64,000 bases of DNA from Warburgia ugandensis (taxonomy: Eukaryota > Streptophyta > Magnoliopsida > Canellales > Canellaceae), in the NCBI GenBank assembly GCA_035236585.1, contig CP141139.1, forward strand, positions 42,293,217-42,357,216. Direction: 5' to 3'. Below, piece after piece: positions 17,936 through 43,081 of this stretch (position 1 is its first letter; each line of letters starts with the position of its first letter). The notes beneath the pieces are model-generated. The model was not told the origin of the DNA. It did no database searches and was given only the letters and a program-made list of their open reading frames with translations. The position numbers were made by a program, and so were the translations under genes.

Positions 17936-19073
17936 TTTTTCTTTATGTTAGTCGGGCATTTGATGGGAAGTCTATTTTGTGGTTTAAATAAGGGTGCATA
18001 AAGAAGTCATTTATATATAAAATGACTTTAAAGTTGTTGAGAGAAAAACTACTTTAAAAGTATACACTATTTTATAATTTTTATTCAGAATATATACACT
18101 TTTTATGTTTGTACTTCATATATAACAATTAATTAATTTTAAATGAATATATATATATTTGATTGACACTATAAGCTTCCAAAGTTTACTTGCGCCACAA
18201 AGTATTGTGATAACCAAAATTAAGAACTAAAAATATGTGATAACCAAAGAATTACAAAAACTGTACTAATAAAAGACATTAAGCAAAATAAGATGGTAAA
18301 TTAATTATGAAGTGGTAATGTGGGTGTGTTAGCTTAAATTTCCCTATCCATTTCATGAGCTATATGCATGTGTGCGTGTGTGAGTGAGATAAAGCTTTCT
18401 TGACTCTAAATTCATATAAGTCAAACTTTTGTATAATTTTTATTTGATTTGCATACTTTAAAAGTGTACACTTTTGAAGTTAACATAGGTTCATGCATAC
18501 ACTTTTTTATTATTTTTTATTTATAACTTTTTTATTCAAAATATACACACCTTTTATGATAGTAGTTCATATATAACAATTAATTAATTTTAAATGAATA
18601 TATATATATGATTGACACTATAAGCTTCCAAAGTTTACATGCATCACAAAATACTTTAGAAACACTCCTAAATTAAGAACTAAAAATATGTGATAACCAA
18701 AGAATTACAAAAATTGTACTAATGAAAGAACATTAAGAAAAAAAATATTTTTATTCAAAATATGTATACCTTTTATGTTAGTACTTCATATATAATAATT
18801 AATTAATTTTAAATGTGTGTATATATATATATGATTGACAATATATGCTTCCAAAGTTTACTTGTGCCACAACATACTGTAGAAACACTCCTAAATTAAG
18901 AACTAAAAATATGTGATAACCAAAGAATTACAAAAACTATACTAATAAAAGAACAATAAGCAAAATAAGATGATAAATTAATTATGAGGTGGGAATGTGG
19001 GCGTGTTAGCTTAAATTTCCTTGTCCATTTCATGACCTATATGCATGTGTGTGTAGCTGGCTATTAATCCATA

Positions 19074-19107
<34 letters not shown>

Positions 19108-19148
19108 GCTCAGGATAAAAGAGCTAATTAAAATTATAAATATGGAAT

Positions 19149-19222
19149 TAGGGTTTAGGGTTCAAGATTCAAGGTTAAGGTTTAGGGTTTGGGGTTAAGG
19201 TTCAGGGCACAGGGTTAGGGTT
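19149..19222 (+). repeat. Degenerate telomere-like heptamers, block 1
   Basis: Heptamers close to the plant telomere unit (TTTAGGG) are mixed with TTCAAGG, TTAAGG and TTCAGGG variants. This is an interstitial array inside the tandem repeats of the CACTA element, not a chromosome end. Confidence 0.8.
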
Positions 19223-19717
19223 CTATATACTTAATTATAAATGAATATGTGTGTGTGTGTGTGTGTGTGCACATATTTGATTGACACTAAGCTTCCAAAG
19301 TTTACTTGCATCACAAAATATTTTAGAAACACTCCTAAAGAAATAAAAATATGTGATAACCAAAGAAGTACAAAAATTGTAGTAATAAAAGACACAAAGC
19401 AAAAAGAGATGAATAATTAACTATGATGTGTGTTACACTTTTAAAGTCATTTTCAACAAAACGACTTTAAACTTCTTAACTTTTAAAGTCATTTTTTTAA
19501 AATAACTTTAAAAGTATTAAATTAATTTTTTTGTTCAAAATGTATGAACCTTTTATGTTAGTAACTTACAATATCTAACCATTAATACACAATAAAATAG
19601 ATTTTTTTTTATAGTCAACATCGATTCATGAAGTCTTTGTATGCACATATATATAGCTCACTTATCAATCCATTCATATAGCTCATGACGAAAGACCTAA
19701 AATTTATATATAAATTC

Positions 19718-28400: not shown

Positions 28401-29810
28401 AAATTTATTTAGGGATTAATAATGTTGGTTTTCTAACTTAAGGATTGATCAACATACAACTGTCTAAATCATTGAACCTCAATAATGGATGGTTGGATTT
28501 GTGTGAATCATCGGTCAACAGTCATGGATATCTAGATTCTAGTGTTTTCTATTTGATGACATGGTTGGATCATCTCCATTAAGATTAATTAAAAATGGTT
28601 AGATCTGTCTTTTACAAATGATCCAACTACCAAAACTTATTAAGAGTGTCCAATCTACCTTTTACAGATGATCTAATGGCTAACATTCATAGAAAAGGGT
28701 AGAAATTTTCATTTACAAAGGATCCAATGGTTATCATTCAATGGAGATGATCAAATAGGTCTTTATAAGGTACAGATCAATTATCATATTGTTAATGGAG
28801 TGATTACACCTCTGATCAGTTGCTGATCATCATGGTAGGTGAGAAAATCATCCTCAGGTTGACATTTAGCCATGAATTAGGGTTCAAATTTATCTCCTTA
28901 GTTCTTGGATCAATGATCGAAGCTCAAACAAGATTATTCGAGTTCCTGTTGATCTCTGTTTGTTAAACATGGATGAGATCGATTGTTCAATCTTTTTTTA
29001 GCAATGGATCAGTTAAACCGTAACTGAAAAACCATAGATCTACTAGCATCTACAACAAATCAAGGCAAGATGAAGATGGTTTTGTAGAAAACCTACCTCT
29101 AGAGGGATTACCATCTCCAATCGTCGACGAGGAAGACATAACTTCATGATTGTTCTAACAACTATTTATGCATGCATTGTTCCTCCTAGGATCCAATGTT
29201 GTTCCACCTCTAATCATGGTGGACCCAAGGGGCTTTTGATCATCCTTTTGTGTAGAGTAAATTGGACGGCCAGATTAGAGATCGGAGCCGTCGTTGTCAC
29301 TAGCGAGCTCTGTTTCTCTAGATAACAAAAAAAAAACCCCAAAATCTTTCTCCTCTAGCATGGGTTAACTTTCTAGTACACTGACCATCTTTCCCTTCTC
29401 ATTTTCTATCTTTCTTTCCTTCCTCCTTCCCTTCCTTCTCCTTTCTCTATCTCTCCCTTCTTGTTCCTCTTCTTCTTCTCTTCATAGAGTCTTCTTGTCT
29501 ATGTCGAGTTCAAGAATAGACATAATGTCTGTTCTCATTTTACTTAAGCGAGGGATGCCAGTATCAATTCTAGCACCTCCTATTAAGTGATTTAATTAAT
29601 TTCTTTTATTTTAATTAATTTATGTTAATTATAATTATGATGTTTCCTCATTATTCTACATGTTATAATTTTAGTCAAAAGATATGACGGCTACTCATGA
29701 CAGTTTTCCTATGTCGCTTTACCATTTAGGCTCAGATTTCTACAAGTGGGGCCCACTGTTGAAATTGCCAAATTACCCTTCATGAGAAAAATCATAACTT
29801 ATATATCTAA
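25437..29810 (-). mobile_element. Long LTR copy B, main part
   Basis: Read on the minus strand it contains, in order, the leader block with GAAGGGTAATTTGGCAATTT (near 29785-29765), a purine-rich tract (29520-29380 region), AGAGGTAGG (29100-29092), a long AT-rich middle, minisatellite units with CTTACGGCTGCTCATAGAG (plus orientation, 26880-27290) and the acceptor-like end before 25437. About the first 170 bp of the LTR are missing where it meets copy C. With the piece at 9518-9969 its length is roughly 4.8 kb. No internal gag-pol region is attached. Confidence 0.75.
26880..27290 (-). repeat. LTR-internal minisatellite (copy B)
   Basis: About seven imperfect units of 55-70 bp carry ACTTACAGCTATTCGTA/ACTTACGGCTGCTCATAGAG, then GTGCCT and a CATCAATGAAATC stretch. 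The same unit, on the other strand, is expanded at 61640-62540, and a shorter array lies at 54950-55140. Confidence 0.75.
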
Positions 29811-32689
29811 TATTGGAGTTCTTGAAGTGAAAGTTTTATATACATCAAATCAAGTGTTGAGACATCCATATTTGGATTGTCCTTAGAAAGATGATTCCAA
29901 CGACACTAATTTTACGGAAATCTGAGTCCAAAAAAATAAATTGCTATTTTTCTCATGAAGGGTGATTTAGTAATTTCACTAGTGGGCACCACTTACAAAA
30001 AACTCGATCCGACAATCAAGAGATGTTGGAATTTCATAATTAGTGGTATGCATTCCTTTTTACTAAAATCTTGATGTCTAAAAATTAGTGCATTATTATA
30101 ATTAAGTGTTATTAAAAAAAAGAATTAATCAAAATAAAGGAGGGGCCATAATTGATATTGGCACCCCCCTCCTCACTTAAGTGAATGAAACAGATGTTAT
30201 GTCTATTTCCCAAACCCGACAAGGAGAAAGAGAAAACAAGGAAGAAGAAGACAGAGAGACAGAGAGACAGAGAGAGAGAGGAAAGGAGAGGGGGAAAGGT
30301 GACCTGCATGCCTGAAAAAGGGTAGCCACGTCAGAGAAGAGAAGTTTTGGTGGTTGTTGGATCACCAGAGAAACAGAACTCGCTGGGGACAACAATAACT
30401 CTCATCTGTAATCCAGCCATCCAACTTACTCTACACAAAAGGATGATCAAAAGCCCCTTGGTTCCACCGTAATCGAAGGAGGAACAGCACGAGATTGAAG
30501 AGGGGAAGGTGCATACGGGAATATTCGAAGAAAGCTGCAATGCACTGATGACTATCACCATTCTTTCCAACGATTAATGATAAGCTACAGAGGTAAAATC
30601 CTTACATTAAACCATCATTTTTGTCTTGATCCATGTATAGAATTAGAGGATGCATTTAGACCTAGGGTTTTAAGGGAGAACAAAGGATGATTCCGATCTC
30701 ACTGGTTATTGGAGACTGATTAGAATTTTGAGAATCTCTGTTTGAGTTCAATTGTTAATCTGAAACCAGTGCAATAGATCTGAACCCTAATTCATGGTTA
30801 AACGTCAATCTTTTACTGATTTCCCCACTTGTTGCAATGATCAATGATTGACTGATCAGAGCCGTAGCCACTTCATTAATGCTCTAGTCATCGATCCGAG
30901 GTTGAAAGTGGTCCATCCAACCATTGTACACCCTTAAATTGGCTAAATTTGATCAATTACAATAAATCTTAGCTGTTGGATCATCTGTGTAAGGTGGATC
31001 TGGCATTTCTTAATAAGCTCTAGTCATTTGATCATCTAAAAAAAGGTTGATATAACCCTTTAATCTGATGAAAAACACTAAATTTAGATGTTCACATAGA
31101 TCCAATTGTCAATTTCATCCCTAATCTAAGGACAAAAGCCTTGATAAACCCACATGAGTTTTGATCTTCCATGTAAAGATCCGATATTTATGATCCAGGA
31201 CTTTAATTGCATAAGATTCTTAAAATTGGGATCAAAGGTTAATAATTTTGGAAAATTGTGATGACCCAAGGTTGATTAGAGCCCTAATCAATTGATTAGA
31301 ACTCTGATCAACCGTTGGATCCTTGAGGTCTCACACTAATTAGAATTGATAGTCCTGATCAATAAACTATAGAGAATTATTGGTCCACTATTGGAAATTG
31401 ACTAATTAGACTTGAATCGAATTAAATTGAATGAGAAACTTGATCTGGAATGGAAAGCAGATCTAACAATCTTGACCGTCCAATTAGCTACTACTAGGAT
31501 TTAGATAAGGCAATGGTTGATCAATGATCAGACATTGCCATCATGTTCTTTAACTCTTGAACTATATAAAACTAAAGAAAAGTTCAAATCAGGACATTAA
31601 TCTAGTAGATGTGAACAACAAAAATGAAGTACATGGCTAGAATTGCAATCATATATGGAGAATTGATTGCTAGTATTATTTATATGGAATTGAATAGAAC
31701 TTGATCATCAAATTTTGATTAGAATTGTTATTTAAAAGATATTATGACAGTTTATGTAAATTAAGAAGATTGGATCCTTGAATGATTGATCTATATACTA
31801 AATGGAAGATCAGATAAAGATATGACCATATCTCCCATGTATAACTTACGAACAGTAACGATACAACATCATAATAGACAAATATGACCTTTAGATGATA
31901 AACTAATAAATATGATTAACCATGGATCAACAAGAGATCCTAAGTCTAATAGTTTTATGACTTTGAGATGTTCTAAACTATTAGACCATGAGATAAGTAA
32001 AAATCTAAATTTATAGATTTAAAATAGTATGAAAGTTAGAACTGATGTTATAAACATCAACGTTATACGTAGCATAGATTGACACTTAAGTTGATTGACC
32101 ATGGAGAGAGGATCATAATAGTTGTGGAGAAATGATAAACCATCATAAGAGGCAGGTAATCTGGTACTACCAAGTTTTTAAATGATCTTCAAAATGAAAA
32201 AATGGTTTGAGTACTATTTCTTGTTTAGAATGGTGTGAATTATTACACCAATGATATGATACATGAATATGTTGTGAAAGTGTATATGATTTTCTTACAG
32301 ATTCATCATACCTTATGTTTCTTATATGTTATTCTTACAACCGAGGCATGTAAATTGATATCTGGTTTTAAATTCATGTTGCATACCAAATTTTGAAAGA
32401 ACCTTGAATTATTCAATCCAAAGTATTCAAACATTTACTTGAGAGACATGAGATGATCATGATTTGTATATGCATGAATTTCATATTTTGAAAGGAAAGC
32501 TTGAAAATGTATGGTTTTGTATAGGATATGCATGTCATATGATATGATTTTGAGATATATGAATATGAAAATGAGCTGGATTGGCTATTGAGCTATGCTT
32601 TGAAAAGAATATTTGAGATATGTAGTTTTGCATAAAGTATGCATACTATTTTATATGATTTGAGATTTATGATGTTGATCTTGTGGTGG

Positions 32690-37641: not shown

Positions 37642-38162
37642 ATATATGGAGGTCCATGGAAAGGAATGTACATGAGGTTAATACCGTCAAGAAGGAAATT
37701 ACGATCCAAAGTACTTTAGAAATCCCACCATATTTGCTCATTTGACGTAATTATTGAGCTAAAGTCGCCAATAATTCACAAGAAGGGTGGAAGCTGAGTA
37801 ACCCAAGATAAGTTTATTCTAAGATAAGTTGAGTAATCACACCATCATCCTAATTGAGCCATTTATCGCGAAGCCCATGATCTTTTACCAAGAGCCATCA
37901 GTCCCATCAGGCAGTAGCTACAGCTAGAGACACCACTTTCCTTGCTAGGAAGACATGCATTCAGTGGCAGCACGCCTAGACAGAATCCTTAGGCGCTGCC
38001 AACATGGAGACACAGCACACTGCCACCAGACCACACGAGTTACCCATGGAGCCGGTAGTGCTAACTCTAACTCAAGAAATGGGAATGCACCCAGCTGCTG
38101 ATATGACAATAGTTCAGCCCTCATTTGAATTGGATTACGCAATGACAGTGGCAGCAGATGTT

Positions 38163-38727
38163 TGTCACGGGGTCGTAGTCTCACCTATGCTAAACCCGTG
38201 CAACACTTGTGCACATCTCCCTTTCCTGGCATAAGTCAGCCTTCAATCCCCCAATACTCTCACTTGCTAGTGCTACACTCACTCACCCACAAAAGCAATG
38301 AGAGGAACTCAAAAGAACTCAGAAAGGAAACGTCCCAATGTATTAACCTTAGCTGAGCTGAACTAACCTGAGCTGAGTTCTGAGCTTATCTGAGTTGAGT
38401 ACAAGCGAGGAGCTTACACCTATTTATACTTGTTCTCCCCCATCCACCTCCTCAATGGATGGTCTAGATTATTACATATGTCAACAATCCAACGACTAAG
38501 AACTAATCTAGAACTCACTCTAGAAAACTCTACACAACTCTCTAACCTTCTACCTTTCTAGATATTTACAAGGAATGCACTAGAAACTGGGCCTTCTAGA
38601 TTCAAGCCAAGTTCCATGGACCTTCCCAGGCAGGTTTGAGTCCCTAAGGTCAGGTCTACGTCCCAAGTGAGCCTTCCTTAGAGGATGCAAGCCCTGGTCA
38701 CGGGCTTTGCAATGCAAGTTCGTGACA
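38163..38727 (-). repeat. 3' LTR of the gag-protease-only element
   Basis: TGTCACGGGG...CGTGACA, with 6-7 bp terminal inverted repeats. The minus strand carries TATAAATA (38421-38428), a good core promoter at the usual LTR position. Differences from the other LTR are mostly transitions. Confidence 0.92.
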
Positions 38728-38740
38728 AACTCCCCCACCT
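38728..38740 (-). other. Polypurine tract
   Basis: AGGTGGGGGAGTT on the minus strand directly abuts the 3' LTR. This is where plus-strand DNA synthesis would be primed. Confidence 0.8.
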
Positions 38741-39180
38741 AATAATGTCGACGCCCTCGTCCACACGCCTTTGCTGTAGTTAAACCTTTGATCTTGGGCA
38801 AGTCTCATGTTGCCTTGTCCTCTGCATGAGATGCCCTGCTGTGTCCCTCCCTTTGACCTTGCTCTCCGACCCCTCTTGTGCACTTTTGGGACATCCTTTA
38901 GCTCCTCCATGTTGTATGCGTTCTTCCACACTTGTGCCCCTTTGCACAGTTCGAAGTTGTCACCCCTCTAGTGCTCAACCCTTGCTACTCTCCGTTGATG
39001 TGCCTCCTACACCTTGGTGTGGCAGCTACCAATTCCCATGGTCTGAACACGTCTTGGCTCGATCTTGTCCCTCTTGGAGTTTCCGCGCTGAGACACACCC
39101 TTGTCATCAACTAGTCTCTCCTTGGACCATTCAGACCTCAGTAACCTAATGGCACGTAGCCATTGTGGCACTTCTATCAG

Positions 39181-40849
39181 CTACAAGGTAGTTAGCACCT
39201 TCCCTTGCCCCCTTCCATTCTTCAACACTGAGACTGCACAAGGGTTCTCCTCATCAAAGAAGTTCAACATTCTAAGGTGTGGCATAGGGACTGCTCTAGC
39301 CTTGGTGAGGAAATCCATTCTCAAGATAACCTCATAATCCTCCAAAGGTATTACCGTTAAAGTGATGGTGCCTTGCCACTCTCCTACCTTGATTGGTACA
39401 TGCCTGGCAACTCCTAATACAGACTTCGCTTCGGAGTTGACTGCCTTGATCCTGCTCTCATCCCTCTTCATCTTGAGGCCTAATCTCTTAGCCTCTCTTT
39501 TCGAGGTGAAGTTGTGAGTAGCTCCCGTGTTCACCATAGCTCTTATGCCTTTGCCATTGAGGCACACATCTACATACATTAGACTCTTCCCTCCATTGGC
39601 AGGTTTGGTCCCTGATGCCTGCCCCGTCATAGCATTGAGGAGTCTAAGGGCCCCCATCTTAGGCTCCTCCTCTTCACCCTCATCCACTACCTTGTGGTTC
39701 TCCCTTTCAACCACCAAGGCATTAAGGGTCTTCTTCTTTGGGCAATTCATTGCCCTATGATTTCCATCACATATGAAGCAACGAATTCGTCAAGAAAGGA
39801 ACTTACCTTTGCCCTTTGGGTTGTGCCAACCTCCCTTGCCTTCTTCCTTATGACCCTTAGGTATGTCCTCCTCATTGTTACCTCCATTAACCTTGGCTTT
39901 TCCTCCTTTCTTATGCCTTTGGCCCTATTGTCAAACTCCACTAGTTTCTCAGCAGTTGAGAGTGGAGTGGCCAAGTCTTGCACTCCCCTCCTTTGTAATT
40001 CTTATTTCGCCCAAGGTTACAACCCATCCATGAAGAAGAACAACTTGTCCTTCTCATTCATATCTGAAATGTTCAGGAGCAAAGCCGTGGATTGATTCAC
40101 ATACTCCCAAATAGATCCCATATGCTTTAGACGCTTCAGACTCTTCCGAGCCAAGTATTCCGCATTCTCTGGGACGAATTGGGCTTTGATCTCTCTCTTA
40201 AAGTCTTCCCATAGGGCTATGGTGCAATGACCCTTATCTGCATCGCCATACCTTCATCTCCACCATAACATCGCATCGTCACACAAATACATTGTTGCTA
40301 CATCTACCTGCATGGCTTCCTCTGAGATCTTGGCAGCTTTGAAGTATTGCTCCATTTGCCACAGAAAATTCTCTAAGTCCTTAGCATTACGGTCCCCTTG
40401 TAGCTTGTAGGTTCAGGGATCTTGACCTTTGGAACATACTCCTTTGGTCAAAGTCCTCCACCATTAGCCACAGCCTTCTCCAATAGGGCTAAATGAATCT
40501 TAACATCATCTAGCTCAGCTACTTCCTCATGGAAGCCAGCTACTTCTCCCTCCATGGTCTCAAGATGATCAGACATGCCCTCCACCTTTTATATGGTCTT
40601 GGAATTCATGACCTTGACCACATTAAAGGAGCATCACATCTCGGCACGAAGACCAGGTAACTCCTCCACATAGGCATTAGACTTGTTCAAGCAATTAGCA
40701 AGAGTTTGCTCAAACTTACCGAACCTTTCCTCCAACATAGCGAGGCGAGCATCCAAAGCCAAATTCCTTGATGGCTCTCTAGACTTCTCCCTCCTTGACT
40801 TCTTCTGAACCTCCATAGGTATGGTGGTCTTTCCTGACTCACTTGCCAT
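39181..40849 (-). pseudogene. Gag-protease remnant of the compact LTR element
   Basis: Starts at 40849 (MASESGKTTIP), about 95 bp inside the 5' LTR. Then come a coiled-coil-like stretch (LALDARLAMLEERFGKFEQT), a second helix region, KIPEPTSYKG, and the retrotransposon Gag domain with LENF-type and MYL/LWWR-type landmarks across several frames (about 40460-40050). The zinc knuckle CFICDGNHRAMNCP lies at 39786-39739 (C-x2-C-x3-H-x4-C). The long open frame 39750-39181 carries a retropepsin-like domain: VDVCLNGKGIRAMVNTGATH, then VPIKVGEWQGTITLTVIPLE and MDFLTKARA. The catalytic aspartate of the usual DTGA is asparagine (NTGA), so the protease should be inactive. The frame stops at 39181, with no RT after it. 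Several frameshifts and stops break the Gag part. Confidence 0.88.
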
Positions 40850-40930
40850 GATGTTGCCACGAGCTTTCCCCAGTACTCACTAAGAAACTCCCATGTCGAC
40901 CGGTTCTGATACGAACTCTTGGTACCAACC

Positions 40931-40943
40931 TGCTCTGATACCA
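40931..40943 (-). other. Primer-binding site (initiator tRNA-Met)
   Basis: TGGTATCAGAGCA on the minus strand, two bases after the 5' LTR, matches the common plant LTR-retrotransposon primer site for tRNA-iMet. Confidence 0.85.
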
Positions 40944-40945
40944 AC

Positions 40946-41509
40946 TGTCACGGGATCGCAATTTCACCTATGCTAAATCCGTGTAGCACTTGTGCACAAC
41001 TCCCTTTCTTGGCACAAGTTAGCCTTCAATCCCCCAGTACTCTCACTTGCTAGGGCTACACTCACTCACCCACAAAAGCAATGAGAGGAACTCAAGAGAA
41101 CTCAGAAAGGAAAACTCCCAATGTATTAACCTTAGCTTAACGAACTAACCTGAGCTGAGCTCTAAGCTTATCTGAGTTGAGTACAAGTGAGGAGCTTATA
41201 CCTATTTATACTTGTTCTCCCTCATCCACCTCCTCAATGGATGGTACGAATTATTACATATGTCAACAATCCAATGGTTAAGGACTAATCTAGAACTCAC
41301 TCTAGAAAACTCTACACAACTCTCAAACCTTCTACCTTTCTAGATATTTACAAACAATGCACTAGAAACTGGGCCTTCTAGATTCAGGCCAAGTTCCATG
41401 GACCTTCCCAGGCAAGCCTGAGTCCCTAAGGTCAGGTCCACATTCCAAGTGAACCTTCCTTAGAGGCTGCAAGCCCTGGTCACGAGCCTTGCAATGCAAG
41501 TCCTTGACA
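40946..41509 (-). repeat. 5' LTR of the gag-protease-only element
   Basis: Same structure as the 38163-38727 LTR, with TATAAATA on the minus strand at 41213-41220. It starts TGTCAAGG on the minus strand, one substitution from the other copy's TGTCACG. Confidence 0.92.
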
Positions 41510-43081
41510 TGTTGCTGGTAACTAGATTTGCCCCAAGGTAAAAGCGGCCCCGACCAGAAGCCAGTTATTCTTCCTTTGGGAGAGTTCAAGTCCGTCCATT
41601 CTCCTGTCCTACACCAGAATAGTAGATTAAAAAAAATCCAAAAGTAGGAAAACTAGCCCAGGGAACCTGACTACATCAAGTTCACAACCATCCTTGAAAA
41701 CCTAAAGTCCCATTGGAATTAATACCTTTAAGCCACTCCCTCAGCCACCTATATATTTGCCGAGTAGACTTACCACTACTAAAAAGGGTAAGACAATGGC
41801 TAAGGAATGTGATGAGAGAGGTAACATGACATGATCTGAGCTAGTAGGCAGACCTCCAAATGACCATAGCAGAGAACCACTCTACCAAAATGAAAGTGTC
41901 ACTCATGACCTAGAGAAATAGTTAAGCAAGACCATGGCCAACATTTTCCTATTGGATTTGTTGAGGACATGAGCCCTTCACCACCATGTCATGAAAGACA
42001 TTCTCTAAAAGGCTAGGGTTCCGCCATAAATTTGACTCAAGGACCTAGAGACGAGTGCATCATTGGTATTTTGATGCAAAGCTATGGTGTTTATTGTTAC
42101 AACTTGACTCCCACTGGCAGGAACCATATTGAGGCCTTTTTACTTAGCAAGCCATGAATGCACCAAGTTGGGTTTGTAGCCTCCACCTTACAACAAAGAC
42201 TAAAACATAACTATGATGGCTAGGGGATGGTCATCATGGGCATGTATGCTCGAAATCACTAATGACTAACCCTTCTAGAGCATCCAAACATCAAAAACTG
42301 ATCTCCCACTTCATAGCTTCTAGTTTGACTCATGCTGCCAAGCACCACAAAATAGATCATGACCCAAACTGATCCCATCGTAGCCATGTTCTTTCTAATA
42401 CCAAATGCCGCTTGGTGTTCCCAAAATCCAACAACAACATCTGATCAAAAAGTGCAACATAAATAGAAGTACATCTTTAGTTAGTAGTGGAGAGCTCTGC
42501 TAAGACATTTTTGTCTCCCTAGGCAAATCAAGATAAAATGGGCCAAAACCACCTAATCCAAGCCAAGCCAAGCCAAGCCAAGCCAAGCTATGGTGTTGGA
42601 TGTCATGTCCAAGCTATCATTTTTGGCATAGGAAAACCATAGACATGATGAGCAAACCATATGCATGATGAAGGAAAAATCCTCCATATCCCATATAGGT
42701 GAAAATTTGGAGCTTTAAGCTCACACTTCAGCACGAAGACAAAAGAAAGGGCTGATTGATCCTTCACCATGGCAAGTCATCACCACGTTACTCATGAGAT
42801 GGCAAGCAAACTACACCACTATGTCATAAGAAAAAGCTCCAAAATAGTACATGGTCGAACCTAGAATGACTCGACAAGTAACTTCCTTCCATAGAAGTTG
42901 ACCAACACTTGTTGTGTCATTGCCACATCATAGCCACATGGTATACAAGCAAGCCACACCACAACGTCATAAGAAAATCTCCCCAAATGGTACAAGAGAC
43001 TATCCATATGATTTGACAAGTAACTCCCCTCCCTACATAGGGTTTGACTAGCCATTACCATGTCATTTTCATGTGACTGCT
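41510..43081. other. Unassigned, with a 150-bp tandem duplication
   Basis: The first 130 bp may be the 5' part of the L1 element (NNWLLVGAAFTLGQI can be read on the minus strand near 41570-41525). The rest matches nothing I know. It contains (CCAAG)6 at about 42558-42587 and an imperfect duplication of about 150 bp (around 42780-42930 and 42931-43080; both units have CACTATGTCATAAGAAAA or CAACGTCATAAGAAAA and GACAAGTAACT). Confidence 0.5.

Follow-up and report, generated by a model that had tools for sequence, protein, structure and literature searches.

A short LTR element without a pol gene

The window analysed here, a 64,000-nucleotide stretch of the Warburgia ugandensis genome (C14:42293217-42357216; the assembly comprises 14 contigs and 1.12 Gb), contains on its minus strand, at positions 38163-41509, a 3.3-kb long terminal repeat (LTR) element with Gag, a zinc knuckle and a retropepsin domain. 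The 5' LTR (40946-41509, minus strand; 564 bp, TG...CA) and the 3' LTR (38163-38727, minus strand; 565 bp) agree at 517 of 564 ungapped positions (91.7% identity), the differences comprising 37 transitions and 10 transversions and giving a Kimura two-parameter (K2P) distance of 0.0897. At a rate of 1.3e-8, attributed to Ma and Bennetzen 2004 and applied in a passage of PMC5818461, this distance corresponds to an insertion age of about 3.4 million years. On the coding strand the interior begins with GTTGGTATCAGAGC, and at its other end lies the polypurine tract (38728-38740, minus strand; interior end AGGTGGGGGAGTT), which is also found in other copies of the family described below. The primer binding site TGGTATCAGAGC (40932-40943, minus strand) stands at the start of the interior and recurs both in other copies and in a relative bearing reverse transcriptase (RT); we take it to be of the initiator tRNA-Met (tRNA-iMet) type. 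The element is bracketed by the target site duplication TGTT, on the left at 38159-38162, where AGA precedes it, and on the right at 41510-41513, where GCT follows it; the flanks match over these 4 bp, with no 5-bp match. An earlier sequence-only reading had held that the element moved as a unit, and the two LTRs, the primer binding site, the polypurine tract and the duplication all bear this out.

The first part of the interior is a broken gag (39790-40849, minus strand) with a Pfam match to Retrotrans_gag (PF03732) in 40017-40253 (E=8.7e-9). Next to it lies an open frame of 202 codons (39181-39789), not 189 as first stated, which carries the zinc knuckle and the retropepsin-like domain, the latter a Pfam match to gag-asp_proteas (PF13975; 39304-39573, minus strand; E=1.3e-11). 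The knuckle, read from this frame at 39742-39780 (minus strand), is a zinc-knuckle-like motif of the form CX2CX3HX4C, one residue short of the standard spacing. No zf-CCHC family is among the Pfam matches listed. Frames of 202 codons arose by chance in 13 of 500 random samples with the composition of the interior and in 0 of 60 with that of the whole window; given the 13 of 500, the openness of the frame is weak evidence for the interior and the Pfam domain matches carry the claim.

Between the protease frame and the 3' LTR lies an untranslated stretch (38741-39180, minus strand) with no pol match; the 40 protease-bearing loci introduced below have a stretch that matches it. Pfam searches with four minus-strand fragments and one plus-strand open reading frame 3' of the protease gave no match, and the protein of the RT-bearing relative found no RT-RNase H match anywhere in the window. 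For integrase, the sole search was that by Pfam on the fragments 3' of the protease, which yielded none, and the approximately 440 nt left are too short to encode one. An interior holding Gag and protease and no pol, as had been proposed from the letters, is what these searches recovered.

The window copy is an old, inactivated element

Following the coding path from an ATG near 40849 towards the protease frame, we encountered seven in-frame stops in gag, beginning at 40634, 40589, 40448, 40254, 40017, 40002 and 39790 (the last occupying 39790-39792), together with two frame changes identified by eye. As the gag path holds these seven stops and two frame changes, we regard the window copy as dead, which the sequence-only reading had offered as one of two options, and the element as an old, inactivated one. 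All nine lesions of the coding path precede the 202-codon protease frame.

The protease itself is altered as well. The catalytic codon (39529-39531, minus strand) is AAC, so that the window copy has Asn in place of the catalytic Asp of the DTGA motif that characterises functional retropepsins, and in phmmer alignments with Ddi1 proteases this Asn falls opposite the D of DTGA; the NTGA noted earlier is thus present. A second substitution replaces Gly by Arg (AGA) at 39319-39321 (minus strand), and this change, like the broken gag, goes beyond what had been noticed before. GAC to AAC and GGA to AGA each correspond to one plus-strand C-to-T change.

The pol-less plan recurs across the genome

Searching the assembly with the LTR gave at least 41 matches (40 scored of 2871 candidates) and with the protease at least 151 (150 scored of 3066); since few candidates of either search were scored, copy counts are lower bounds. 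Among the first 20 loci, taken around LTR matches, are complete elements of about 3.3 kb, others that are shorter or partial, and LTRs standing alone. Ten of these together with the 30 best protease matches make up 40 protease-bearing loci, which represent 36 distinct copies, the window included, so that the 3.3-kb structure recurs as a multicopy family. A 3' LTR lies 399-513 nt beyond the protease in 39 of the 40 loci (in L014 the sequence examined stops before it), and a 5' LTR lies upstream of the protease in 38, mostly about 1160 nt before it. When searched with the relative's protein, the elements at these 40 loci contained no RT-RNase H; matches of 31-35% identity in L022 and L028 fall outside the elements. 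In the first 85 protease rows, 13 (counted by eye) show an open frame of 576-809 aa together with a stop-free match, a length at which a single frame could hold both Gag and protease. No relatives were found in the viral contigs and prokaryote genomes searched.

The copies closest to the window copy are therefore built on the pol-less plan, and its recurrence argues that the window copy is no one-off deletion. Had a single full-length element lost pol by internal deletion, an explanation to which the existence of a relative bearing RT and RNase H lends some plausibility, the same pol-less structure and 3' stretch would not be expected at loci spread over many chromosomes, whose LTR pairs diverge by K2P 0.021-0.136 across 31 copies (many measured on just 300-370 nt of LTR). 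We give this explanation next to no probability. The sequence-only reading had allowed that most copies might carry a full pol region, and among the loci inspected, those most similar to the window copy, this is not the case. The single internal deletion is refuted by the plan seen in the 40 loci.

The catalytic Asp is kept in the other copies tallied

We tallied protease residues in 35 distinct copies, leaving out L025 as too damaged and L054, L055, L057 and L069 as duplicates. The catalytic residue is Asp in 34 of the 35, encoded by GAC or GAT in all 34 other copies (GAC in 30 of the 35), and Asn in the window copy only; L025 also has D at this place in its best alignment. At the second site, 39319-39321 in the window, Gly occurs in 30 of 35 copies (GGG in 20, GGA in 10), Arg in two and Glu in three. 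The neighbours of the catalytic residue vary, with Arg for Gly in 6/35 and Met or Ile for Thr in 6/35; the motif variants include DTRA in five copies and DMRA in one. Other copies keeping DTGA, which the sequence-only reading had counted as evidence against itself, are thus found as far as Asp is concerned (34 of 34), while Thr and Gly vary in some copies. In a tree computed after masking the motif, copies with Arg for Gly or with Met or Ile for Thr do not group together, among them the DTRA copies (L020, L043, L052, L060 and L061). By inspection, a Thr codon ACG places the Gly codon that follows it in a CHG context. These scattered variants of DTGA likely reflect recurrent decay.

With Asp in 34 of 35 distinct copies, the Asn change appears to be private to the window copy, and its altered protease is most likely a matter of decay and not of strategy. 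The opposite view, put forward by the sequence-only reading as its second option, is that a lineage with the inactive NTGA protease spread while borrowing all of its enzymes, protease included. The stop-free protease frame of the window copy could be read in this sense, the chance that nine lesions spread evenly over 568 codons all miss the last 202 being about 0.02 (a post hoc figure that includes the frame changes called by eye), as could the recurrence of DTRA and DMRA. Asn, however, is found in one copy of 35, the tree neighbours of the window copy have D (node support 0.47, which is low), the DTRA copies do not group, and selection on the protease frame looks purifying. Spread of an inactive-protease lineage is consequently very improbable.

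The selection argument is based on the ratio of nonsynonymous to synonymous divergence (dN/dS), for which the median over 595 pairs of the 35 copies is 0.37, with all pairs below 1. The other five frames of the same alignment give median ratios of 0.47-0.93. Single-pair neutral simulations produced medians of 0.63 with the lower 5% at 0.39-0.44, and neutral simulations on the same tree with transition bias gave 0.61, none of 60 runs falling at or below 0.37. From these comparisons of sequences, the family protease is likely, not certainly, under purifying selection.

A relative with reverse transcriptase and RNase H

The closest RT-bearing relative found is a 5.6-kb element with a protease at C14:39548495 that is 62% identical and belongs to a 1125-aa open frame, RT and RNase H following 3' of the protease (PF00078, E=8.3e-38; PF17919; PF17917). 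Its 452-bp LTR matches the family LTR mainly over the last 159 bp (75%), leader and gag start show 74% identity over 337 bp, and the primer binding site is the same. LTR pairs of the relative lie 5.1-5.2 kb apart at seven places (C14, two on C7, C13, C6, C10 and C3), with 98% identity between the two LTRs on C14. From the Retrotrans_gag match and the relative's order of protease, RT and RNase H, we take the family to be of the Gypsy type.

The RT search scored 77 of 36463 candidates. Five of the 150 listed protease rows have a scored RT match no more than 6 kb away, and all five belong to the 61-63% tier; the 106 protease rows at 70% identity or more include no such case. A further lineage at C9:70916761-70918404 has an RT 71% identical to that of the relative and an open frame of 1529 aa, and its match is free of stops. 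An autonomous family other than the 5.6-kb relative might mobilise the pol-less elements: the LTR match to the relative is limited to the 3' part, the C9 lineage offers a second RT source, and 77 of 36463 candidates were scored. Against this, the primer binding site, leader, LTR end and target code (see below) are common to the family and the relative, and the five rows near a scored RT match are confined to the one tier. We consider another helper unlikely, if clearly less so than either alternative above.

A shared target preference

Among 23 family insertions with both ends readable, 20 have a 4-bp duplication and none a 5-bp one. The exact target AGC-NNNN-GCT surrounds 9 of these 20 insertions, and in 14 at least five of the six fixed bases are present. 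Counted by flank, AGC stands at -7 to -5 in 20 of 29 upstream flanks and GCT at +5 to +7 in 35 of 53 downstream flanks, and the target of the window copy in coding orientation is AGC-AACA-TCT (38156-38162 and 41510-41516). These counts cover the flanks of L009-L071, with L042, which is the window itself, dropped and entered as W, and with L054, L055, L057 and L069 dropped; they retain an upstream flank of L064 that is doubtful and, for L065, a pair of downstream flanks that are almost the same. L029 and L047, which are the same element, contribute different ends, so that neither of its flanks is counted twice.

Comparison of 70 flanks of 150 nt returned five matching pairings. Two pair L011 with L013, which are related landing places, one lies within L013, and one is a 40-nt match between L019 and L027; the pairing of L022 with L045 is attributable to element interior, as both loci show only a 3' LTR. 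Because few flanks resemble each other, the motif does not stem from one repeated landing place.

The relative has similar targets. Four of its elements, partly chosen, all carry 4-bp duplications, with AGC at 4/4 and GCT at 3/4 ends: AGC-TTTT and TTTT-GCT on C14, AGC-CTAC and CTAC-GGT on C7 (where the far end is GGT and not GCT), AGC-CTAT and CTAT-GCT on C6, and AGC-CTCC and CTCC-GCT on C13. For C14, C6 and C13 one AGC end was known beforehand and just the other end is independent; C7 was picked without such knowledge. A search for the relative's LTR-start pattern that tolerated a single mismatch recovered 25 starts. Of these, 12 match exactly and 13 differ at one position, which in six cases falls in AGC; the reversed control of the pattern gave 0 matches. 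Considering the 18 starts with an exact LTR part, 12 have exact AGC and six are one base off, where 8% exact AGC would be expected (P ~8e-10).

The shared 4-bp duplications and AGC-NNNN-GCT targets point to one integrase type for both families. We lean towards the view that autonomous and semi-autonomous Gypsy families here share an integrase with a 10-bp palindromic AGC-NNNN-GCT code cut 4 bp apart, and that this code identifies the helper of the pol-less family, which would return selected Gag-protease. A limited literature search on target preference found no description of AGC-NNNN-GCT.

A putative mode of mobilisation in trans

Taking these results together, we propose, with a probability of roughly 85%, that the window element is an inactivated copy of a semi-autonomous Ty3/gypsy-type Gag-protease family to which the 5.6-kb relative or a close cousin supplies RT and integrase in trans, and that the Asp-to-Asn change had no role in its spread. 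Family RNA would be transcribed from the LTRs and yield Gag-protease, which would form particles that mature, a step suggested by the selection on the protease and the open frames. RT and integrase would come in trans from the relative or its cousin, as the shared ends (primer binding site, leader and LTR end) and the shared target code suggest, and the supplied integrase would set the 4-bp spacing and the AGC/GCT preference. The Asp-to-Asn change would have arisen after, or shortly before, the insertion of the window copy.

Several points weigh against this proposal. Mobilisation in trans is deduced from sequences, and the structure was inspected in the 40 loci, which are those most similar to the window copy; the copies, being found by similarity to it, favour well-kept ones. 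A cruder test, in which shared and singleton variants were compared across codon positions, did not reach significance (P=0.32), for which reason the selection claim is carried by dN/dS against the other frames and the simulations. The element that actually serves as helper may be a cousin of this relative, as the LTR match covers the 3' part only and the proteases are 62% identical; as a complete element the relative is putative, the portion read comprising protease, RT and RNase H.

If the proposal holds, the family provides a case of a protease without a pol gene that is apparently kept under selection, which fits the idea of a common pool of particles to which elements of this sort contribute Gag. 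In practice, the target code could serve to assign a pol-less family to the integrase by which it is moved. It is the freshest part of the analysis, the Gag-protease element type being already known.

Comparison with known elements

The family belongs to the known semi-autonomous GAG-Pro or TR-GAG kind; the resemblance to TR-GAG elements pointed out in the sequence-only reading is borne out, the window copy being one of many with gag and protease but no pol. It has two LTRs with primer binding site and polypurine tract, a target duplication, Gag and protease, and multiple copies; RT, RNase H and integrase are absent, the last judged from Pfam searches of fragments and from the little space left for it. 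TR-GAG elements reportedly go back to Chaparro et al. 2015. TR-GAGs resemble the family in having two LTRs and Gag and no RT or integrase (PMC6022998, PMC8704663, PMC10025401), and the Inpactor rule for them admits GAG plus protease (PMC6022998). They are described with a single Gag ORF (PMC8704663), whereas the present family keeps a protease that shows selection; a TR-GAG insertion has been detected in Arabidopsis ddm1 (PMC8704663). The wheat Gypsy element RLG_Sabrina_SA is likewise a high-copy GAG-Pro LTR element without RT or integrase, termed 'semi-autonomous' and placed in a complex with the autonomous RLG_Wilma, RT and integrase being encoded by another family (PMC9744471). At 8.1-8.3 kb (PMC9744471) it is longer than the 3.3-kb element of the window, and the likeness is one of described structure.

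Gag-protease subfamilies beside one with RT and integrase are also described for wheat RLC_famc1.4/1.5 (Fatima; PMC6097303), which is Copia (RLC), unlike the Gypsy-type family of the window. In einkorn, RLG_Cereba and RLG_Quinta were recognised as a pair by common LTR motifs, primer binding site and polypurine tract, and the short partner was proposed as a Gag donor (PMC11302176). The Quinta ORF, however, holds Gag and an unknown domain only, and the pair is centromere-targeted (PMC11302176), unlike the family. Cotton provides another case that is probably non-autonomous, a short element alongside CRG2 (PMC3334964).

With respect to target sites, 4-bp duplications are reported as commonest in Galadriel, Phygy and Bryco, and 5 bp in 87.2% of surveyed plant elements (PMC6911290); in Beta, chromoviruses belonging to the Tekay, CRM and Reina clades duplicate 5 bp (PMC3605345). 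The family shares its 4-bp duplication with Galadriel chromoviruses, a likeness of duplication length that is not exclusive to Galadriel. The Tos17 target ANGTT-TSD-AACNT, as cited in PMC6911290, has palindromic flanks outside the target site duplication (TSD), as in the family, but Tos17 is a Copia element with a 5-bp duplication and a motif different from AGC-4-GCT. The code also contrasts with the statement in a passage of PMC6317226, argued from duplicated bases, that most plant LTR-retrotransposons recognise no particular sequences.

Other features of the window

Elsewhere in the window, positions 29197-30489 form a long imperfect palindrome of 1.3 kb with a 66% match to its own reverse complement. 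At 18071-19430 there are direct repeats of about 140-310 bp that are roughly 81-88% alike.

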